The position numbers and the translations under genes were made by a program. Of a DNA stretch of 64,000 nt, positions 424-34,792 are shown piece after piece. The notes under the pieces are model-generated. The model searched no databases and was not told the origin of the DNA. It saw nothing but the letters and a program-made list of their open reading frames with translations. Where the stretch lies: the NCBI GenBank assembly GCA_015501585.1, contig JADNRY010000022.1, forward strand, positions 186,001 to 250,000, read 5' to 3'. Each line of letters starts with the position of its first letter. Position 1 is the stretch's first letter. Source of the DNA: Rhodocollybia butyracea (lineage: Eukaryota; Basidiomycota; Agaricomycetes; Agaricales; Omphalotaceae).

Positions 424-3151
424 TCATGCCCACGACGAAGGACCGAAAGTACCATTCGGTCCATCAGGAAGTTTGAAAGGAATACCCATGGCATCTGCAG
501 TTCGCTGCCACACGGTGTTGCCCCACCAGTTGACAGTGAATCCACCGCGAGGCAACTGCACAGTGAAGAAAATCACGACGAGGGAGACGGCAACACCACC
601 GTCTAGGGCAGCGGAAAGGATATAGTTGTAGCGCATCCACCACCTGAAGTGGAAGCGCCGTATGCAGTAGTTGAAGACAAATCCGACAGCAGCCCACGAG
701 GTATAGTTGATACCGGATGCGGGTGGGAGAGCACCGACACCGCCGAAGAAAACGGGGATATTGATATATCTCCAGAACGATAGAGGGAAACGGCGCGCTA
801 GGAAGTAGAAGGGGATGGGGAGGATGGCGCCGATAAGGTAGAAGAAGAGGAGAGGGTTATAAGGACGACCAGAGCTGAACATGCGAGCGGGCCCAACACC
901 ACCCCAGATGAGTGAGGAGGTAGCGAAAGTGTTCGTTGATGGGCAAGAGAAACCATCTTTTTGGTCGGGAGAGCAGTAGTCCTCGATGTTCGCAAACATC
1001 CAGTTCTGAACTAATGTAACAGTGAAGCATGCAATGACGACCGCGACGGTTTGGACAGTAAACATGAGACGAGGGGGAATCTTCATGTAGTGACCGAGTT
1101 TCATGTCACCAGAGAACGCGATAGCTTGGCTGGTAGTAACGTAGGTAAGGCCTTTGAAGATGATAACGGCGACGGGACGTTCGGGAAGGATATATCCACC
1201 GATAAGCTCGTAGAAAACCTGGATGTTTCCAACCTGCTGATTGGTGATGGCCTGTAGCATAGACATAGGTAGCGCGAGGGTGCTGGCGATGATAAATGAT
1301 AAGACAGCCGCCCATACAGGGAAGCCAGTGGGAACCAGGTGAACGGAAATGAGGAAGAAGACCATGGCGATGACACCGAGAGCAGTGTACCAGAACCAAG
1401 GGACCTCGCGGTAAGCCTGCATGAGACGAGAGTGAACATCACGTTCATCCTTCAGAGTTGAACGGAAGCGACGAGCAATATCGCGACGGAACCACACTGT
1501 CAGAACACAGATGAGCAAATTTACGAGGATGAGGGAAAAGAACAAACGCACAGAAAGTGTGAACAAACACTGCGGAAAAGGCAGCAAAAGAGCTGGCATA
1601 AGCAATGCAAAGAGTCGCAGGGATGAAGACAGGAGAGTAGGCAAGGTACTTGGCATTATCGAATTGGCCGTTAGTGACGACCTGTGATACATCATACTCA
1701 GCACCAGTACGGTCGAAAGAAATCGGAGCCGATATGGGAAGATAAGCGGTATTAAAGGCGTTGGTAACTAAAGGACGATGTCAGATATGCTGAATATCGG
1801 GGATAGCACGGGAAACATACAGTACAAGATGGGAACCAGAATAAAGAACTGGATGACGAGGGAAACAATCGTGTTCAGCTCAGACCACCACTAAAAGGCA
1901 GAATGAGTTTCGGTAGGAAGGGAAAAAGAATAGAGCATACAGGTGTAACCAGTGGGCTGCCAATGAAAGCAATCATAGACCAGTCAAAAGTGAAGATACC
2001 CATACCCAGGCCGGTATTGGTTCCAAAAAGCACGTTAACGGGAACATTGTTGGGAGCGATCCAACACACCCAGTTGAACACACTTAGGGCAGTGAACAAG
2101 TACCCGGGAAGCCAGTAGTAAGCAAAGCTCGCAAGGAACGCGAAAAGGAAGAAGCGTTCACGAGTCATATGACCACGGTCGCGCTTCCCGTAGTTCTTGT
2201 GCAAGGTGTTGAAAAGCGCTGAGTTCACCAACGCACCTGGCCAGATCATACTCGAAGGCCAGACAACAAACTGACGAAGGAGACCACCCAATGAGAAGCC
2301 GAGGACTTGTGAGCCGATGCACAGAAGAATCTGGTACCCGTAAGGGATCGCCTGGTTGTAGAAGATTTTCTGCGTGGCGATAACATCGGTAACGTAGGCA
2401 CCGCCAACCACAACGTTAGCCATGATAGTAATACAAACGTGCTCCTTGAGAGTGAAAGGTCCAGGATTCAAAGACCAGCGGAAACCAAATGTATTGAACT
2501 GATAGTTGGGGAGGATCCTCTCGAGCAGTTTACCACAAGGTAAAACAACCAATTGGACGACAATGCCGCTGATGTAGACAGAGGGGACTAGAGATAGATG
2601 AGCATGGATGGACGTCAAACATTAGCTAGGAAAAACATACACCGAGCGCTGAAGAACTGGTTGATACCGGAGACCAGGATAGAAAAGATGACACCCAAAA
2701 ACCACATGCGGAAAGTGTTAACAAGCATTTCTGGGTCATCGGTGCTGGACACGGCAGCACGAACTTCGGGATAGGGCGATTCACTTAACAACAGATTCAG
2801 AAACAGAAGAATCAGCGAAAGAAACATGGCATACTCATCAAAGTCGAGTGCAGTCGAGTTCCGGGACTCTGCGCGAGAGGTAGAATACCGGTCAGAGGTG
2901 TCGATGTTGGATTCGGTATCCAACTCGGAAGAGGCGTAGTGTAACTGTTGAGCCTTCTTGTCCGAGAGCTCCATGGATTCGGTAACCTTATAGGGCTTCG
3001 AAAGGTCCAGATATGGATCGTTCAAGTGTTCCTCGACAAATCCGGCATCGATATCCAAAGGGACATCGGGGACTCGTCGCGCTCGTAAAGTAGCATTTGG
3101 GAAGGAATAAACTTCCTCAGTTGAGGAGTTGTAAGCTTTGCTATCTTCCAT
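424..3151 (-). CDS. OPT-family oligopeptide transporter
   Basis: Multi-exon gene for a proton-coupled small-peptide transporter of the OPT superfamily, expected in the plasma membrane or vacuole. The start is the ATG at 3151 (MEDSKAYN...), which opens a hydrophilic N-terminus before the first membrane helix. OPT signatures are clear: a first helix region ending NQFFSAR; after an intron, the block NTFGFRWSLNPGPFTLKEH; later ITNQQVGNIQVFYELIGGY, SGDMKLGHYMKIPPR and VFFGGVGALPPASGINY. The last exon ends in GPSSWA. Between the large exons a further exon carries YDVSQVVTNGQFDNAKYLAYSP, so the frame can be followed throughout with normal introns and no lesion was seen. Its position near a putative peptide-natural-product locus is suggestive only, because OPT genes are common in fungi and a role in export or uptake of that peptide is not shown. 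Confidence 0.93.
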
Positions 3152-5728
3152 GGCGAAATATAGCTCGAGCAAAAAACGCAAGGAAAAGGGCAGCTAGGCC
3201 CACGGGATGGAAACAAATGTAAGGAGCATCCATGGGGCTGAAGCCTTTTTAAACAAATCGCTTAGCGGATCCACGACTGGCGGGAAAGTTCAGCTATGGT
3301 CTCTCATCCCAAAAAGACAATTGAGACAATAGAATCCCAAAATATGAATTTTGATCGCATTCAATACAAACAACAATAAGAGTACTCGGCGCAAAAATGT
3401 CGATAAGGGAGGTAAGGCGTAACCTTTACATTTGATGCCCACTCTTCGTCGTGTTCAGTCTACATCGATAAGTTGTTAACTTGAGTCTTGCGGTACTTAG
3501 AAAGCCAGCCCAAATTATGGAAAGAAAGTTCCGAATGGGCACAGGAATTAAATCTCATGAACAGGATCATTCCGACAGCCAGTGTGGTACAGGTACATCT
3601 CAAAAGTACAAAAAGAACAAAAAAGACTGATTCAATTTTAAAATTAGAACTCTTTAGAACTTCGATGGACCCGAATGACACACGGTCATGTGAGTATATT
3701 TACGTAATCTTTCTCGGGCCTAACGGCCCCCTCCAAAACGCCACCGGGGCTCAGGCTCAGCTGCAGCCTTGCTCTAACCACAAACATACAGTCCTGTGTT
3801 ACAGAGTCCTAGTAGATTTTGATATTAGTATCATCCTCAGACCGCCGATTGCGTTAGTACTATAAGTAGTTACACGTTACTACATTATTGAAATTCCACA
3901 GTGCATTCTGGCTATTGTCGATTTCACTCTGAGATGGATTTATGCAACAATCCGCGAACAATGCAAGCACGTATCTTGATATGGAAGTCAACCAACATAC
4001 TTATAATTCTCTACGATAAGTTGATTATCTTGATGAGCGTGACTGTACAATGTATGATGAACCAGACGAAATAGCAATCATCTATCCATGCCATGCGGGT
4101 ATTGAGCTGTGAGTTGCCTCTGCACCATTGGAAGAATAAATTGGGCTTCAAGTTTAGTTGAAACTCCGACAGACCATATCGCCACATTGTTCCCTTTCCA
4201 TCTTTAGTAGAGGCAGCTCAGAGGGCTGATCATATAGTATTACCAGGATAAGGAATATGATTACAGGATGTATATGGCTAAATCCCCAACTGAACATAAT
4301 ATGTTTCCTGAAGAACGCTGAAAATAGCTGTGAGAGTTCCATAGCCCTCGCAAGAAGCATTCATGAGGAAGGAGATGGGTCGTCTCGGGAGGTTAAGGCA
4401 CTGTTTCTTTCGATGGTACGCTCTCGTACTTCCCGTCGTAGCCATGTTTCCATTACGAGGATGCTATGAAATCTCCAAGCCTGTATGGGTGCGATGAACT
4501 CAATGTCTCGCAGTAGCTATCTATGAGTAATCCAGTATACAGTGCTGTTAAGCCTTATGGAAACCACGTTTAGATTTAATCTGAGAACTTTCGAAGTACG
4601 AGGGGCTATCAAGGCTAGTTCTTGAGTTTTCGATCACCGATAGGTACTTACTCTATAAATAGTTCTTGCCGTCCCACAAACTTACACTCATGGGAGATAG
4701 AGAGACAGGGGGGACCTAAGGCAAATTGGATGGTCCAGCGCAGTGACCAGACATAAACTAAGTTCAAGAAACGTACGCACAAGTTTTTTTGGTACTACCA
4801 CTTAAGGGCAGCAATTCTATGTTTGCAGCTCCGTTTTGACCACTGAAAAGGTTGTTGATATCTCGAGGTGCTCTATTATATAAAGGGGGTGGTGCCAGTC
4901 CTGAGAGTGCTTGGGGACAATGGCTGTTCGTAACGAAGATGAGAAAAGGTACTGGCGTAGCTCTTAATGACACGAGCAAGATTCCCAGTGGGGACCCACT
5001 GTGGAGACACGATGATTAGCATTAAGTAGCTCCATAGTCGCCAAGATCGGATGGGTCCTCCGTGTTGGATACTCTCAAAGGGGCCATCTGTATTGGTCTT
5101 TCCACCGGGGAGTATGGAAGTCCAAGTTCACAAGTTTCTTAGCCAGATAAGAAGGACTGATCCTCAAGAAGTGTCGGACGGTTCAAGTGAAGGATTCGCA
5201 GTTGGGAGATTTCTGTGTTAGGAGAGGGGCTGAGACTGTCGGTATGTGTTCGGGTGTTATTGAATCAAGAAGATAGCAGAGAAAATTAGTTCCGACGGTT
5301 AGCAAACCTCGATCTGCAGCAAAGTTCTAGAAGTTTACAGTATTACTTGCATGCTGGAGATGTACGTGTACCATCGAGAGCGTTATATACATCCAAACTC
5401 GCATGACCTGAGACTTAATGCATTCGCTGACATGGCCAGCGACGTTACTGACATCGGAAATACGATCCTCAAAGTCAAGTGAAGGAATTAACCAAACACG
5501 GTCATGTGAATGTATTTATGTAATCTAATCTTGATGGCGTACCTCGCTCGCCATTTAACTCCTAAATTGTGCAACTACTTGAATTACAGGTTTGGGAGTA
5601 AATAAGCCATTTTGAACCACATAATTGCGATATCATGACGAGTATTCTAATGGTCAACGGCAGAGCATTTCCGCCGTGCCAACAAGGCTTATAAACAGAC
5701 CTACTTCGCAGATTTCCCTCCCCAAAAA
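3152..5728. other. 2.6-kb intergenic region
   Basis: No convincing gene. Short open frames occur on both strands, but none shows a recognisable domain or a chain of exons. A roughly 30-base direct repeat containing CACGGTCATGTGA is present near 3680 and again near 5499. The two flanking genes are transcribed away from each other, so promoters for the OPT transporter (near 3152) and the dioxygenase (near 5728) must lie here. Confidence 0.5.
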
Positions 5729-7156
5729 ATGTCTTCCACACAGACGCAGACAGTGACTGCTGCTCCAGCACTTATAACGCTCCGCTCCTCTGATGGCTCG
5801 CAGGCTGCGGCTGAGAAATCATCGGAAGAGTACCGTTACTCTCATCTTCTGCCTGTATTCTCCCAAGATCAGTATCCTCCATTAACACCGTTCGAACATA
5901 GTGACCCAGGTCAACGTGCTCTTACGCATGCTAACCCCTGGTCTTTCCTCGATAATGCCACCAGCGTAATCGAGTTGACTCCGTAAGTTTTCCTTTGTGA
6001 CATGGCTAAAGGTTTCAACACTCATTTTATTTCCAAGGCGTTTGGGAACTGAAGTTCACGGTGTCAATCTACGTACTCTTGACTCTGACTCACGAGATCA
6101 ACTAGCATTGGAGGTTTGTAGAACTGTACCTGATCAAAGCTATGCTAACACTTACTTTCGAAAGGTGGCACGCCGAGGACTTATGGTCTTCAAGGACCAA
6201 CAGGAGTTCCTTGATGCAGGCCCAGATTTTTATCGTGAATGGGGATCGCACTTCGGCCGGTAAAGTTTCAACTCCCTCGTCGATTTCTTCAGTATTCTTA
6301 AGCTACTACAGCCTCCATATACACCCGACGTCGGGTCATCCGGCAAACTATCCTGAAATCCATCTTGTATACAGAGATGCCAAGTCTAGCTTCAATTTTG
6401 AGATTGAAGATAGTGTTACTTCCACCTTCTGGCATTCTGATGTGTCGTACGAACTTCAAGTACTTCAAAGTGTCTTCATAAAAAGGCTCATCTGACTTAT
6501 ATATTATGCAGCCCCCTGGCTTGACGACTTTTTTCTTACTTTCGCAGCCTACCACTGGGGGAGATACCTTGTTCACCAGTCAAGTTTCGGCCTTGAAGAA
6601 GCTCTCTCCTCAATTTGTCGCTTTCCTCAAAACGTTGAAAGCCGTTCACTCTGGAGTTACGCAGGCAGACTTCTCACGTTCCGGCAAGCGAGGAGGCGTC
6701 GTTCGTCGTCAACCTGTTGAAAATGTCCATCCTGTGGTGCGGAAGCATCCAGTTACGGGTGAAGAAGCATTGTATGTCAACAGACAATTCACGCGTCGGA
6801 TTCTGGGTCTCAAGCGAGAGGAATCAGGTATAGCGCCTCAGAATTCGGAGTTCTTTTCGCTCATTCAAATACCACATAGCATCACTTCTCGGATTCTTGT
6901 ACGATCACATTGATAAAGGTGGCGACGTCCAAGCAAGAGTACATTGGGAGAAAAACACGGTAGTGTTGTGGGATAACCGTGTTACTGCTCATGTATGCCT
7001 TTTCTTACCGTATGCTCTACCTTTGACTAATACACTCACTCACAGTCTGCAATTGTGGATTACGGTGAATCGAAAGAGCGCCGGCACGGTGCTCGCATTA
7101 CCCCACAAGCCGAACGACCAATCCCAGCTTTCGAGGGACTTGATCTCAACGCATAA
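5729..7156 (+). CDS. TauD/TfdA-family Fe(II)/2-oxoglutarate dioxygenase
   Basis: Multi-exon gene for a non-haem iron, 2-oxoglutarate-dependent dioxygenase of the taurine/sulfonate dioxygenase type. Expected features are visible. After an N-terminal part ending NATSVIELTP there is LGTEVHGVNLRTL. The iron ligands are the HxD of STFWHSDVSYE and the distal histidine of RRHGARITPQ, whose arginine would bind 2-oxoglutarate. Between them lie GLTTFFLLSQPTTGGDTLF, KHPVTGEEALYVNRQFTRR and WEKNTVVLWDNRVTAHSA. It ends in GLDLNA and a TAA at 7154-7156. In fungi such enzymes often release sulfite from sulfonates, but the family also hydroxylates many other substrates, so the substrate is unknown. It lies about 2 kb from the UstYa-like gene and might tailor a product, which is speculation. 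Confidence 0.88.
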
Positions 7157-7268
7157 TTGAATTCAAACGAAGACGAGTTGGCATAGGCTATTAAATATGT
7201 ACAGACTGTAACTTTGATGTAAGAATATGTAATATAAGAAGTGAACGCCAGGTGTTATAAACAGGTGC

Positions 7269-8406
7269 TCATACAATAGACGAGAGATTTTTGTCGTCTG
7301 CGTCAAAGTCGTGGATAAAGGTTATGCTAGGAGAAGTAAGTTTCCCAACAGTATCTTTTGTCCAGCCTTGACCCATGGCAACCCGGAGAATGATTAGCTG
7401 AGGTGATATTGCCTATATGAAAATCGTCGTCAATCAACGGAAGTCTGAGGACGATATGCAATACTCACACAGAAATCCCCCCACACTTGAACCAACGCGA
7501 TTGAGCTTTGGCTTTTTCGTGCATACACGATTACATATACAATCCCGAGGGCCGTGAACAAAGCCGCAGACTCGATCAATATAGCTACGAGACTGGTGTA
7601 CATTTTAGCGTAAGACTGGCCCAGGACGTTGCCTACTTGTCTACGAAGATAAAGTAGACGACCACATATCAGTGCTGTGACAATAATGTTGAGACTGATT
7701 GTGAGAGAGATGTAGGGTATGCCAAAGTCGACAGCGTGTCCAACGAAGAAGTTTGCCCCGGGTTGAGCGCTTTCGTAAATTAAAAGGATGGACATGGCTG
7801 ATGATCAGTTCAGTGAGCATCCAAACGTACGCAGCAATGAAACACATACATAGACCACCCAGCCAGAGAAGGACGGGGAAGAGAATGACTTTCCAACATG
7901 AGCCCCATATCATATAACATCGATAAATCTGTGCATAAATATATGAACACCATCGTGAGAGAGGTGGAAAAGACACTTTACCAGGAGTGCGTCGCTCAGA
8001 AAGTTCATCATTACTCCAGCAGTAGTTCCAGTGGTATTATAGGGATCCGAGATGTGGGAGGAAATATAAGCCGTAGGTCCTCCTTCTATATCCCGGTGAT
8101 CTATCCACGCATTTTGGCCGAAGATAGCATTGCAGGCTAATGCGATAGTCCATAGCACGACAAGGACGCCGCCAAAAACAATATAGAGACTCGTGTCTTG
8201 TTTCTGAGCCCTTGGAGATCTGAGAATCAAATGACAAGATAAAACATAGATGGCCAGTTGGAGTCCTACAGATGCGCGGTAAGTATCGCCCTCAGGTTCG
8301 TTGAAAAATGCGCACCATATAGTATACCAGTGATCTGTATTCCGACATATAGTGACCTTTCGAAAGTAAGTTCGCTGGGGGTATCAATGCCAGCAGACGT
8401 TGACAT
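7269..8406 (-). CDS. Basidiomycete seven-helix integral membrane protein
   Basis: Multi-exon membrane protein. The start ATG at 8406 gives MSTSAGIDTPSELTFERSL, followed by about seven hydrophobic segments spread over the exons: VGIQITGILYGAHF; LYIVFGGVLVVLWTIALAC; a segment with CFIAAYVWMLTEL; ISLTISLNIIVTALICGRLL; VAILIESAALFTALGIVYVI. The C-terminal tail has the pattern PQLIILRVAMGQGWTKDTV and ends SSIV with a TGA at 7269-7271. The same architecture and the conserved QLIILRVAMG-GW tail occur in a large, functionally uncharacterised family of mushroom membrane proteins. No ligand or enzymatic activity can be assigned. It faces the dioxygenase tail to tail, with about 110 bp between them. Confidence 0.75.
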
Positions 8407-9176: not shown

Positions 9177-10155
9177 TCACCGAAAGGTAGGAATTTCTAG
9201 ATCGTCTTCGATATATACGGACATGTTTTGTTGAAGAGGAACAAAGTGGTTTTCTGCCCACGATTTCAACTTCTGGAAGTCCCTACAGGAGTGGACAACA
9301 TCCGACCTGCAAGAGGGAATGAGCGCCAGTTCATCTTAGCTACAGGATCCGTACCTTTCCTTCGCAGCCTGAGACCTCTCCGACCATTGCCAAACGATTG
9401 GAGTGATATCGGCAGAGCAGGCGATGGACTGTCTCAAGCTTGAGATACAGTGTCGCATATGTGGAGTGTGGATGCCTTCGTCTGTCACGGGATAGTATTC
9501 TGGATACATAGCCTTGCGCATTTCGTTCTAAGGGACTCAGGTTAATAATCTGAAAACCCGGGGAACATGGACTTACCAAGCAGTGAAGTTCGTGGAAAAC
9601 ATCCAAAGCGATCATGTAGTGGTCTTCTTCTCCAAGGATAGGATACGTCTTATTTGCCATCAGTGCGGCTTCATTCCGCGGTACTTTGTTCAGAGCGACT
9701 ACCCGTAGCTAGGCTTCAGCAATTTGAAGATATTTCCCAAACAGTGAGCTTACATTCGTAAAGACTCTCCCACGCAGCGTCGACTTCGGGAGATGGGGGT
9801 TGATCGTATATGGGCAGATCAGATCCAAATCCGCTGTGAAATTTGATCGTTTCGTATCGAATTGCATCCTGAGCAGGCGCTAAAACATACATGTATCGAG
9901 GACGAAACGCTGAAGAAAGAGAATTCGCTCACAGTAAAGAAATTTTGAGGGCATGACCCTAGGACCGTTAGCGTCGTGAGCAAGGCTTGTAAAGCTTATG
10001 AGAACGACGTTTAGGATTAAAGATCCGATAAAGAGAAAGGAAAAGAGTAGCGAGCGGAGCTGGCCGCATAAACTTTTGGTTTTGGATGTGGCGACGCCCC
10101 CTTCGGAATCATGGTCAATGAGCGGAGTATAGACAATGGAGCTGTTAGAGTGCAT
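9177..10155 (-). CDS. UstYa-like (DUF3328) peptide-tailoring oxidase
   Basis: Five exons (10155-9933, 9879-9754, 9698-9577, 9527-9355, 9306-9177) splice in frame to 257 codons plus stop, a usual length for the family. Residues 1-35 are cytosolic and about 36-58 form one membrane helix (FLFIGSLILNVVLISF); the rest should be lumenal. The two hallmark HxxHC motifs are present: HELHC at about 152-156 and HMRHC at about 180-184. The family's PRNEAALMANKT segment, the MYPEYYP segment and the C-terminal VVHSCRDFQKLKSWA block are also present. UstYa proteins oxidatively cyclise or crosslink ribosomal peptides such as ustiloxins, phomopsins and asperipin. The gene is divergent from the Kex2-repeat precursor 1.05 kb away, which makes that precursor its likely substrate (inference). 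Other UstYa members act on non-RiPP products, so the assignment is family-level. Confidence 0.92.
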
Positions 10156-11207
10156 TGCGGGGGTCGACAAGATAGGCTCTTGGAGTGGTGCAATTCTGAA
10201 CTGACCACGGCTTGGACATGTTTTTTTTAAAGTAACGCTAAGATTATCAAAGTCGGCAGTCTTGTTATCGCCGAGTTGACAAAATCAGTATAGTCAAAGT
10301 TACGGGCTATGAAGTCACTCCGAGTCTGAATCGCAAGTGGGTAATGCTGTCAGGGGAAGCTGCGCGACTGTAACAGGAACTTGAGTCATGATCGTAAGGG
10401 AGAAACACGGAATTTGGATGCATGGATCCGCTAAAGTTACGGAGCAGCGCTTTGCGTTATTCATAATTGATTCACAACCCAAGTGATAGGTGGCACAGTT
10501 AGCGGATGTTGAGTTCCTTGGACCGGAGAGAACCGCATAGCGCTAGCGCCGTACTGTAGTTGTCACTTGTCAATTAAGAGGCAAGAAGTGGACTGATACA
10601 GTTGGACCGTGATTGTAAAGTACACAAGCGTGGGTAAATGCGTCAAGACTCCAGCAGTGGCAGCATGCCGCGCGTCTATGTACTCTTTCCGATTCCATTG
10701 ATGATCCTCGCTCATTCTAAGCTTGCGAGACTAGTCTTCACCGCTATGTGCCTCTAGTGCGCACTAGTACCTTCAAAAAGGAACCCGCTGCAGCTCATCG
10801 TCCTGAGTGAAACACGCATCTATCTTGCTTAATTGAACCTCCACAGACGTCGCTCTGATGATGGACAGAAATAACGACTTGACCTCACAAACTTGACCTT
10901 GTCCGCACTGGATTAACTTCTAATGTGTCATTACCCGCTCGCATCATTTCAAAACATCTCATCTTCAAGCGACTCTCTCTACTGTAGTCCAATATTTTCA
11001 TAGATTTGCGTTAAGTTTTCATTCATCAACTGTTCCCCTGTTATACCCGTGGACCGCTCCCGAGGTACGAGCTCGAATTTCAACTATTTTTGAAGTGCAC
11101 TGCTCGAGCAAGAAACAATCATCCAAATATTTTTGAACTATGGTAAGGTATAAAAGGTCTAAAACACCACAGGTATGACCATCGCCTCTCTTTGTCTCTT
11201 CGACGAT
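10156..11207. promoter_or_regulatory. Divergent intergenic region between UstYa-like gene and repeat precursor
   Basis: About 1.05 kb separates the two start codons and must contain both promoters. A TATA-like element (GGTATAAAAGG) lies at about 11146-11156, some 55 bp upstream of the precursor ATG. An alternative in-frame ATG for the precursor lies at 11175. No reading frame with recognisable content was found, and no regulator binding site can be named with confidence. Confidence 0.5.
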
Positions 11208-12215
11208 ATGCAGACCGCAGCTCTCATCTTTATTGCCGTAATGGCTGCATCTAACGTCCTGGCCCTGCCATTCAATAATCCCAAAGGTGATCAATTTCTT
11301 CACTACCATGGCACCGTCATGATTTACTAAGCGATCCCTGCTGTAACCTAGGAGTTGCATCCGCGCTCGTAGCTGTTGAACCATCGGTTGCTATTGCGTC
11401 GCCCCCGGCCCCATTGATTTTCGCCAAGGTTCAGTGGGATGCCGAGTAAGTTGAAGCTATCTACGAAATTTTGCCATCCTGTTCATTATTCTGATAGTGT
11501 TGAACCCGGCACCACAACTTCAGCAGCCCCCTGGGGAGCCGAGCGAGTGCCACTTTTCTCCTTAGTTCTACTGTATACTGAAGAATAATTTCTAGAAAGA
11601 GAGACGATTTGTCTTCCAGTATTGCCTCTTCTGCACCCGCAGCCTCGACAGCATTGAGTCCACAAATATTCGCAAAAGTCGCTTGGGAGGCCGAGTGGGT
11701 CCTACAACTTCAATCTAATATTATGCTGATTTTATTGTTCTAGGAAGCGAGATGATAGTTCTATCTCGCCAATGCCTGCGATTGTCAGCCCAGATATCTT
11801 CGCAAAGAAAGCTTGGGAGGCCGAGTGGGACCTACAACTTCAATCTGATATTATGCTAATCATATAGTTTTAGGAAGCGAGATGATAGCTCTACGCCAAT
11901 GCCTGCGATTGTCAGCCCAGATATCTTCGCAAAGAAAGCTTGGGAAGCCGAGTGGGTCCTATCAGCTCAATCTAATTTTATGCTCATCTCATTATTTCAG
12001 GAAACGAGATAATAGCCCTATCTCCTCAATTCCTGCGCTTGTCAGCCCAGATATCTTCGCAAAGAAAGCTTGGGGGGCCGAGTGGGTCCTATCAGCTCAA
12101 TCTAATTTTATGCTCATCTCATTATTTCAGGAAACGAGATAATAGCCCTATCTCCTCAATTCCTGCGCTTGTCAGCCCAGATATCTTCGCAAAGAAAGCT
12201 TGGGAGGCTGAATAA
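11208..12215 (+). CDS. Secreted Kex2-repeat precursor peptide (dikaritin/UstA-like RiPP candidate)
   Basis: Exons at 11208-11286, 11352-11445, 11498-11542, 11596-11694, 11744-11824, 11874-11951, 12001-12081 and 12131-12215 splice to 240 codons plus stop (225 if exon 3 is skipped). Residues 1-19 form a signal peptide (MQTAALIFIAVMAASNVLA). Then come six repeat units. Each ends in a block of the form FAK(K/V)xW(E/G/D)AE followed by KR, a Kex2 site; the last four share the core-like block SPDIFAKKAWEAE (one has WGAE). All internal introns after the first interrupt the same glutamate codon (phase 2), so one exon equals one unit. The layout of signal peptide, spacers and KR-bounded near-identical cores is that of UstA-type precursors, and a UstYa-like gene is next door. 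The repeats contain Phe and Trp but no Tyr, unlike ustiloxin or phomopsin cores. The start at 11208 is preferred because it begins the signal peptide; the in-frame ATG at 11175 would add 11 residues. Confidence 0.85.
11596..12215 (+). repeat. Tandem exon-intron repeats inside the precursor gene
   Basis: Five successive exons (99, 81, 78, 81 and 85 nt) alternate with introns of exactly 49 nt. Introns 4 and 5 resemble each other, and introns 6 and 7 are identical. The block 11952-12081 (intron 6 plus exon 7) is repeated at 12082-12211 with only two substitutions in the last dozen bases, so the most recent duplication copied an intron-plus-exon module of 130 bp. Confidence 0.9.
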
Positions 12216-13484
12216 GCTCTCAATCTGCTTGCTTTGGAGTTACTTCGCCGCTTCCGAGTATTTATTTAGATCGATTCAGTAGAGTATAATAGTCATCAGG
12301 TTCCATCATCGCTGTATTTGGTGTTCGTCCAAGGCTCTTGCCCAGTGAAAACTCTCTTCCACCATCCCAGCCATGGGATTCTTTGCTGAATTGGAGGTGG
12401 CTCAGTGTGCGATAGCACGCCAAGTCTGTTACTAAATCAGTTATCTTCAGTGTTGAGATACGTAATGTTGAAGGAAGCTGAAGGATTTCGAGATAGGGAT
12501 ATAGCTCGAGCTGCTTGCTCAGTGTCCCAGCGATGTCGGACTCGCTTAGAAACTAGTTCAAGTTGTATTTTGCGTTGCTGGCATACCGAAGAACAGCCGA
12601 AAACTTCCGAAGATACAGACTGTGTAAGTACGGCCGATGTTTTTCCCCAGCAACTTACGGAAAGCCAGGTGTGCTTGTTATCCAGTTCGGCACTTTTTCA
12701 CAATAAATTGAGGAAATGATAAGAAATCTTTTTAAACGCTGTTGGTACCTCTTGAGGTACCTGTTTTTTCTGGGCAATGTGAAGAATGTAGTTTGTGAGG
12801 GGGACATTAACGATGAATTTTTTGGGCCTATCATAAAAGGAGTAAGTTACAGTACTCGAAACTCCGAGGCTAAGGTCATTCCGCCTGCCAGCTTCTGATA
12901 AATGATTGGTATCAGTTGGGATGTTTACACAAATTGATGAGAACACGCTGTTGGGACTATAACCACCAGGGCATTTGAGATTGCGCACTTAGAGACTAGC
13001 AGAAGAGACACGAGTCACATCCTGCCAGGTTTCCGAGGGAAGGCAGGAGCCAAAAGCTATCTCAAAGGCATCGAAGAAGTCATCAAATGCTCATATTGCC
13101 GTTGATTAAACAAGTGAAGCAGTCGTTGCAGCTCTACAAGTATGACGCTCGAATATGGTGCATCTAGAGAAGAAGAAAGAGCAGCGGCCAATGAACATTT
13201 GAGCTATCGCCGACATACCATCACATTCAGGTTAGAGATGTCTTCTGGGCGCAAGATGTGGGGTGAGAAATCAATAATATCGTGTCCTTTGAGCTATTGA
13301 ACGGATCAAGCAGTAGCCAAGGTTTTGGGTTCATGGTTTTGGCTGGTTTTGGGCCAAGTTCCAACTGCTCGATCAGTGGCTGTGCTCGGTCAGGAGTGGG
13401 CGCTTATTCATTCTTTTGATCATTGCAACAAGTTCCTCACTGTGTTGATTTTTCCTTTCTTCCTCGTTCTGAATACGCGTCGAT
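12216..13484. other. Intergenic region without a recognised gene
   Basis: About 1.27 kb. The longest plus-strand frame (12405-12719, 104 codons) has no recognisable domain. The stretch should contain the precursor's 3' untranslated region and the ALG10 promoter. Confidence 0.4.
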
Positions 13485-33858: not shown

Positions 33859-34713
33859 TTAGCAACACAGCCCTTGACTATGACATTTCTCTAGTTCCCT
33901 TTTGGTTGTCCCATTCAGATTGCAATCTTGGATATCCAAGCACTCCAGATTATCCAATCCAGATGATTGAGACTGCGAGGTAGGCCACCAGCGCGACTGT
34001 ATAAAGTCAACAAAATGACTACACCCCGCATCCCTGGAATCCCTGAGAGATGTCCCAACAAAGACTTTTAAATGTGGCAAGATCGGTAGATGTCCATCAT
34101 AACAAAGGGATTTCATTAGGCCAGCTGTGTTTGTATCACCCTCTGGCAGGGCATGGATGTATAGCTCTTCAATTGTGATGACAGAAGACAGAAATTGCAC
34201 GAAGTCATCAAGCCTAATTGCTTTGTTATGATGTTCTTCCAACATCCAAGTCAAACTGAAGGACACAAGTGGAAAGCGCGACTTCTTCTGAAGCTCAAGC
34301 AGAGCCGGACCAACTTTCGCCCCCTGTTCGCTGTTTTCTTTGACCACGAAGGTTCCCAAGGAAAGTTTCTGAAGCAAAGGAAGATGGATCGATCCGAGAA
34401 GATCACCGATGGCATTGATCGATCCTTTTAGCGAGAAGTCTACCAACCTTGGGAAAGAAACTGAAGGTAGAGCACAGGGCTCAAACCAGCCAATTCTGGT
34501 TAACTGCAAGCAAGTAAGATGCCGGAGTTTATCAAGCATTAGAAAGTCCTGTATAAAATAGGCCGCAAAGCCGAGAAAAAAAAAGAAAAAAAAAAAAAAA
34601 AAAAAAAAAAAAGAATAGCCGATATTTTATTTAATATTTTTTTTTTTATTTTTTTTGTTTTTTTTTTTTTTTTTTTTTTTTTTTTGCAGCTAGCGAGTAG
34701 TTAGGTCAGGAGC

Positions 34714-34792
<79 letters not shown>

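Follow-up and report, generated by a model that had tools for sequence, protein, structure and literature searches.

The window analysed here is a stretch of 64,000 nucleotides from Rhodocollybia butyracea (assembly GCA_015501585.1, contig JADNRY010000022.1, positions 186,001 to 250,000 of the forward strand), and the locus under study lies at 195-198 kb of this contig, which is referred to below as C517. Two divergent genes 1.05 kb apart are found at the locus: a gene for a UstYa-like (DUF3328, PF11807) oxidase on the minus strand (9177..10155 of the window) and a gene for a Kex2-type repeat precursor, predicted to be secreted, on the plus strand (11208..12215). The intergenic region of 1052 bp between them (10156..11207) presumably contains a shared promoter. 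No second copy, duplicate or haplotig of the locus was found in the 95.6-Mb assembly. The original prediction for this DNA had proposed a dikaritin-type locus for a ribosomally synthesised and post-translationally modified peptide (RiPP), and its coordinates and its content of both genes agree with the exon models.

The oxidase gene consists of five exons (10155-9933, 9879-9754, 9698-9577, 9527-9355 and 9306-9177, minus strand) separated by introns of 48-55 nt, all of which are GT..AG. The Pfam UstYa profile (PF11807) matches the translation over profile positions 14-220 of 220, with an E-value of 1.9e-49 and a score of 168.9 bits against a cut-off of 25; a comparison of the oxidase with DUF3328 by hidden Markov model had been set beforehand as a check, and the similarity is present. 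The exon model and the hydropathy profile also bear out the expected 257-residue protein with a single N-terminal membrane helix (a hydrophobic stretch inside residues 29-60, with its peak at 35-54) and the motifs HELHC (residues 152-156) and HMRHC (residues 180-184). The HxxHC(x)nHxxHC arrangement and one N-terminal membrane helix are both features of the UstYa family. In an alignment of 28 UstYa sequences, comprising the window protein and 27 of 73 database matches, residues H152, H155, C156, C184, C194 and C222 do not vary, and at least 90% of the sequences have H180 and H183. The predicted protein is a genuine full-length member of the DUF3328/UstYa family in which both copper-binding motifs are present.

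The public R. butyracea model of this oxidase, BDP27DRAFT_1217107 (P0002), is identical to the window protein from APAQD onward; it begins within intron 1, and the membrane-helix exon is missing from it. An AlphaFold2 model of P0002, the entry without the membrane helix, was computed with 39 sequences and has a mean predicted local distance difference test score of 84.3; the HxxHC motifs (residues 82-86 and 110-114 in P0002) sit on helices 79-93 and 109-125. A search for solved structures related by sequence gave no match at E ≤1, and a Foldseek search for related folds, made against the PDB only, gave 155 matches at E ≤10 and none at E ≤0.001. The DUF3328 protein CctR, a cyclochlorotine hydroxylase, likewise has one N-terminal membrane helix and the HxxHC(x)nHxxHC motif, which is reported to bind two coppers per monomer; the enzyme is described as copper-dependent, with O2 as the oxidant and with a helical domain proposed to face the lumen of an organelle (PMC12435403). 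The position of the oxidase motifs on two helices, together with their conservation, fits this published account of a dicopper enzyme, although CctR differs in that it hydroxylates a nonribosomal cyclic peptide (PMC12435403).

The precursor gene comprises seven exons, which all join in frame across GT..AG introns, and encodes 198 residues when counted from the second ATG at 11208 and 209 residues when counted from the upstream ATG at 11175. The start at 11208 is more likely because the Lentinula precursors described below (MQFAAFIFLAVAYSALALPFKN) begin, by eye, at the equivalent of the second Met. Exon 1 (11208..11286, or from 11175 with the upstream ATG) encodes the signal peptide MQTAALIFIAVMAASNVLALPF, assigned by eye and by hydropathy. 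After this leader exon, six exons carry one unit each, and every unit ends in IFAKxxWxAE: unit 0 is encoded by exon 2 (11352..11445, PLIFAKVQWDAE), unit 1 by exon 3 (11596..11694, DDLSSSIASSAPAASTALSPQIFAKVAWEAE), unit 2 by exon 4 (11744..11824, DDSSISPMPAIVSPDIFAKKAWEAE), unit 3 by exon 5 (11874..11951, DDSSTPMPAIVSPDIFAKKAWEAE), unit 4 by exon 6 (12001..12081, DNSPISSIPALVSPDIFAKKAWGAE) and unit 5, followed by the stop codon, by exon 7 (12131..12215, DNSPISSIPALVSPDIFAKKAWEAE). Each exon from exon 3 onward opens with KR, which gives six IFAK units and five KR separators. The translation confirms the leader, the six KR-separated units and the four copies of SPDIFAKKAW(E/G)AE that had been read at the locus, as well as repeats with Phe and Trp and without Tyr: past the leader, Tyr is absent, and Phe and Trp (six each) are confined to the IFAKxxW heptads. 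The hydrophobic leader and the repeats split by dibasic sites are the marks of a Kex2-processed repeat protein (KEP).

Tandem Repeats Finder reports a 130-nt unit in 4.1 copies with 90% matches. This module corresponds to an exon of 81 nt (99 and 78 nt in two cases) plus a 49-nt intron, and exons 3-6 measure 99, 81, 78 and 81 nt, all multiples of 3. As 130 cannot be divided evenly by 3, an open frame requires the removal of the 49-nt introns, which is good evidence for the exon chain. Units 2-5 all read IFAKKAW, and their 130-nt modules match at 90%, which suggests that the array grew in R. butyracea by local exon-plus-intron duplication; the final two introns are identical. Between units 0, 1 and 2, the codons for I, A and K differ synonymously. 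Intron 2 (11446-11595, 150 nt) holds a 45-nt unit-like in-frame stretch (VEPGTTTSAAPWGAE, 11498..11542, plus strand) flanked by an AG acceptor and by a GC donor (GCGAGT follows it), which may be a relic or an alternative exon. The predicted exon chain is coherent, and the locus is more than a product of chance.

A search of proteins with the window precursor returned one match at E ≤1 among 1334 candidates, namely D9757_002198 of Collybiopsis confluens (P0001, 2.3e-8). A two-row profile built from the window precursor and P0001 returned five proteins at E ≤10 among 7561 candidates, P0001 included, and the other four are precursor relatives from Lentinula aciculospora (P0075, 1.9e-23), L. detonsa (P0076, 7.3e-20), L. 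raphanica (P0077, 3.9e-14) and L. guzmanii (P0078, 2.7e-10). Rhodocollybia, Collybiopsis and Lentinula all belong to the Omphalotaceae. Neither the single-sequence nor the profile search, with candidates of 0.55-1.75 times the query length, matched an R. butyracea protein, and L. edodes gave no precursor match in them, though its UstYa orthologue (P0004) is present. The proposed basidiomycete pairing of oxidase and precursor recurs in a second genus: the C. confluens precursor D9757_002198 and the UstYa protein D9757_002199 (P0008, 65% identical) carry consecutive locus tags, and the longest contig is 726,963 bases for both. In L. aciculospora, the precursor P0075 and the UstYa protein P0006 are each assigned to a contig of 4,268,692 bases.

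Conservation was counted from Trp, and thus without presupposing the motif. The six precursors contain 30 Trp residues, and, with the reservation that units inside one precursor are not independent, IFA occupies positions -6 to -4 at all 30 of them, K is at -3 in 28, and A or Q is at -1 in all 30. Position -2 is variable (D, V, E, K or another residue), and no single residue is found in more than 14 of the 30 at any position from -16 to -7. Counted from IFA, there are 32 units, two of which lack Trp at position 7, in addition to a degenerate ILA unit in P0077. The Lentinula heptads differ within a protein and, by our own reading, seem to keep their order (IFAKVAW, IFAKDQW, IFAE(D/N)AW, IFAKEAW, IFAKDQW, IFAKDAW); the relatives thus keep several different heptads, whereas units 2-5 of R. 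butyracea are uniformly IFAKKAW. IFAKxxW is conserved in the predicted precursors of six species from three genera, and its flanks are variable. The original prediction had named related loci with conserved flanks and unconserved repeats as a case that would speak against it, and the opposite is found. Its product region holds in part: the IFAKxxW portion is supported by this conservation, and the DDSSISPMPAIVSP half is not conserved in the relatives.

A PF11807 search of the R. butyracea genome gave 18 exon-level matches, which we take to represent 14 genes, that of the window included, on 11 contigs. The DNA round the other UstYa matches was analysed over at most 20 kb each (13.5 kb for C305), which together with the window gives 12 regions; by our own reading of matching matches and arrays, C427/C509, C921/C1161 and C1160/C305 are near-duplicate pairs, which leaves nine unique UstYa regions. 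Clear KEP genes are present in three of the nine: the window, C431 and C427/C509. The precursor on C431 (20122-20812) is Tyr-free, comprises 113 residues with a leader and five units ending in AFPGWN, carries each unit on its own exon (introns of 48-63 nt), and lies 1.0 kb from the best-scoring UstYa match of the genome (C431:19042-19296). A Tyr-type precursor with 13 DRKGYDITV units is encoded on the minus strand of C427 (6894-8132) and C509 (6749-7872), 1.8-1.9 kb from the UstYa matches on these contigs; QR stands in place of KR or RR in 3 of the 13 units on C427 and in 4 of 13 on C509, and stop codons between the units suggest one intron per unit. When array positions were simulated within the 20-kb regions, three clear arrays this close to UstYa were obtained with P 0.014 (mean distance, P 0.041), or with P 0.006 (mean distance, P 0.031) if the array on C921 is included; the test is weak, because the regions had been selected for their UstYa genes and the arrays chosen by eye. 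One proprotein-convertase (Kex2-type) P domain was found in the genome search.

The array on C921 (12979-13419), with its counterpart on C1161 (151672-152106), has a period of 51 and encodes an RR-spaced 17-residue repeat (SDAEDGETLTSLGDF) near UstYa. It was not counted as a KEP because a signal peptide was not seen and several frames are equally open. Other arrays of at least three copies were set aside as not KEP-like, namely C1161:141601-141703 (31 nt), C427:3892-3980 and 13193-13246 (18 nt) and C223:426138-426204 (18 nt), the last of which was translated and has no dibasic sites between its repeats.

A comparison with the dikaritin loci of ustiloxin, phomopsin, asperipin-2a and victorin reveals the same basic arrangement, in that a secreted multi-unit precursor with dibasic Kex2 sites lies beside a DUF3328/UstYa gene. 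A KEP gene and a DUF3328 gene in one cluster, the combination that marks a dikaritin locus, are both present in the window, and asperipin-2a likewise involves just one DUF3328 gene (PMC7329392). The window differs from the ascomycete dikaritins in its basidiomycete host, its Tyr-free IFAKxxW heptad and its one unit per exon. Further differences are that no second DUF3328 gene is found in the window and that tyrosinase has no match on C517 (the genome search gave two, on C805 and C179). For P450, 92 of 624 candidates were scored, with 115 matches; none of these is in the window, and the nearest on C517 (matches at 40 kb and 279 kb) is about 81 kb off. The core Tyr used for the ether crosslink in ustiloxin, phomopsin and asperipin is absent from the window precursor. 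Victorin, which is placed with the dikaritins, is also Tyr-free and is Phe-Leu linked (PMC9233826), which indicates that Tyr is not essential and that a core Tyr does not define the whole dikaritin group. The locus is most likely a basidiomycete relative of the ascomycete dikaritin loci.

Two groups of KEPs reported previously are also similar to the window precursor. The KEPs characterised in Agaricomycetes (PMC9769878) share the leader, the repeats, the KR sites and a Trp near the unit end; their reported products are linear or minimally modified, the window precursor has no XA/XP STE13 signature, and the main text of that report contains no word starting with DUF. The P-3 KEP type of Umemura 2020 (PMC7329392), described from Fonsecaea, Cladophialophora, Galerina, Psilocybe and Coprinellus, is alike in having W for Y and a DUF3328 gene near 4 of 7 members. 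It differs in that W occurs with P, the comparison being one by description, and none of its genera gave a precursor match here. By that description, the P-3 type resembles the AFPGWN precursor on C431 more closely than it does the window precursor.

Taken together, these features make it probable that the divergent pair is a minimal peptide-modifying locus, in which the IFAKxxW heptads would serve as the oxidase substrate and the units would be released by Kex2. The precursor would enter the endoplasmic reticulum and the secretory pathway, and the oxidase, held in a membrane of this pathway with its dicopper domain in the lumen, would use O2 to oxidise I-F-A-K-x-(A/Q)-W in every unit. Cleavage and trimming at KR by Kex2 and Kex1 would then release peptides of 24-31 residues for secretion, or shorter cores if trimming went further. 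The favoured single modification would be a crosslink, formed with the loss of 2 H, in which the indole (N or C) of the invariant Trp7 is joined to a carbon in the side chain of Phe2, Ile1 or Lys4; hydroxylation would come second. Trp is the most likely crosslink partner by analogy with asperipin-2a, in which Tyr-O is bonded to Phe C-beta (PMC12186524), and with the Phe-Leu linkage of victorin. If Trp is indeed crosslinked, this would be a new bond for dicopper DUF3328 enzymes, and the Tyr-free heptad locus would then be a new variant. To our knowledge, a Trp crosslink is not a described bond of these enzymes. Macrocyclisation by a DUF3328 enzyme has reportedly been described by Chiang et al. 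in 2025 (cited in PMC12186524). More tentatively, the Omphalotaceae may possess an unrecognised family of Tyr-free, Trp-centred DUF3328 RiPPs, in which a single dicopper oxidase crosslinks the Trp of IFAKxxW (and of AFPGW at the parallel locus) and which was overlooked because one tiny exon per repeat defeats gene callers; this broader proposal is possible, and we hold it to be doubtful.

Several observations weigh against release and oxidation of a conserved heptad. Because the relatives were retrieved by 5-letter words in common and by a two-row profile, the search was biased towards sequences with a preserved motif; in addition, P0076 (L. detonsa) and P0078 (L. guzmanii) are near copies. 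The annotated relatives contain 3, 2, 2, 2 and 0 dibasic sites (P0001, P0075, P0076, P0077 and P0078, respectively), and one of the three sites in P0001 sits in a degenerate heptad, IFANKRD; with so few sites, Kex2 release of every unit is not conserved, unless the annotated splice sites are wrong. In four units of the window precursor, the KK within the heptad (AKKAW) is a possible Kex2 site at which the core would be cut. UstYa relatives with at least about 60% identity are spread over many genera (among them Moniliophthora, Marasmius and Mycena; 73 matches), whereas precursors were found in three genera only, and in five of the nine unique UstYa regions (C1160/C305, two on C827, C223 and C14) no KEP-like array was found in the stretches analysed. 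The precursor may instead yield linear or minimally processed signalling or defence peptides, with the UstYa neighbour acting on a different target: the agaricomycete KEP peptides detected so far, identified by mass spectrometry in Coprinopsis, Lentinula and Pleurotus, are reported as linear or minimally modified, with AADW at the end of the L. edodes and Pleurotus peptides (PMC9769878), and 1577 of 1680 Basidiomycota KEPs (~94%) are listed without a DUF3328 gene within 15 genes (PMC7329392). This explanation is considered unlikely, as the UstYa gene carries the next locus tag in Collybiopsis, the three clear KEP arrays of the genome lie 1.0-1.8 kb from UstYa matches (with the simulated probabilities given above), and STE13-type XA/XP dipeptides are absent after KR, where DD, DD, DD, DN and DN are found. 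An ascomycete-type alpha-pheromone was rejected on the same dipeptides.

The conservation of the heptad next to a variable preceding half would also be expected if the oxidase recognised IFAKxxW as a follower sequence and modified the Ser/Pro/Ala-rich half as the core, and a split into conserved recognition sequence and variable core is described as a key feature of RiPP precursors (PMC12048977). However, the variable half in the window has no aromatic residue, F and W being found solely in the heptads, and the Tyr-free precursor on C431 likewise repeats a short F/W core, which renders this assignment improbable. The failure of the public R. butyracea proteins to match the precursor, and the degraded unit in intron 2, may point to a decaying or non-expressed array, that is, a pseudogene or an annotation artefact. 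Such an origin is very improbable for an array in which seven exons are in frame with GT..AG introns, the heptad is kept across three genera and the I, A and K codons have changed synonymously between units 0, 1 and 2.

Oxidation of the IFAKxxW heptads by the adjoining UstYa protein would concern a locus that is new, and the KEP-DUF3328 pairing as a kind is already known. In the open-licence literature searched (titles and abstract starts), neither this locus nor a characterised basidiomycete DUF3328 RiPP is described; survey supplements, which are outside that scope, may list the locus unnamed. KEP genes with DUF3328 neighbours have been counted in 1647 of 5372 cases in Ascomycota and in 103 of 1680 in Basidiomycota (PMC7329392), and the fact that basidiomycete cases were already counted speaks against novelty of the pairing. 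The novelty claimed in the original prediction relative to ascomycete dikaritins therefore stands for the locus and not for its kind, because basidiomycete KEP-DUF3328 neighbours, the W-bearing P-3 type and the Tyr-free victorin (PMC9233826) are on record. Dikaritins are listed among ascomycete RiPPs in a review and a lichen survey (PMC9233826, PMC12048977), and 16 UstYa-like genes, six of them developmentally expressed, are reported from Pleurotus (PMC8893723).

Across fungi, DUF3328 genes peak at the position adjoining KEP genes; the same study, Umemura 2020, raised the possibility that KEP peptides are hardly cyclised in Basidiomycota (PMC7329392). With a heptad kept in three mushroom genera, an oxidase paired with it in at least two and sister loci in one genome, this question becomes directly testable. 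The occurrence of the precursor in four Lentinula species, which are relatives of shiitake, should make it possible to obtain material for mass spectrometry. With its units on separate exons and its introns of ~50 nt, the locus suggests that such genes may be undercounted, as no R. butyracea protein was returned for the organism's own precursor.

The neighbours of the locus were assigned by family from 16 scanned open reading frames, some of which have no family, and include an OPT transporter, a TauD-like dioxygenase, ALG10, a kinase, ATP11 and a kinesin; none of them is taken into the locus. The OPT oligopeptide transporter (424-3193, minus strand) is ~6 kb from the oxidase gene, and the TauD-family dioxygenase (6482-7160, plus strand) is ~2 kb from it; a role in the pathway is possible for each. 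Between the TauD gene and the oxidase gene, hydrophobic open reading frames at 7430-8383 (minus strand), without a Pfam match, resemble a multi-pass membrane protein by eye. Farther along the window, at 34574-34791, runs of poly-A and poly-T are followed by a 76-base poly-G tract, which is possibly an oddity of the assembly or a repeat.

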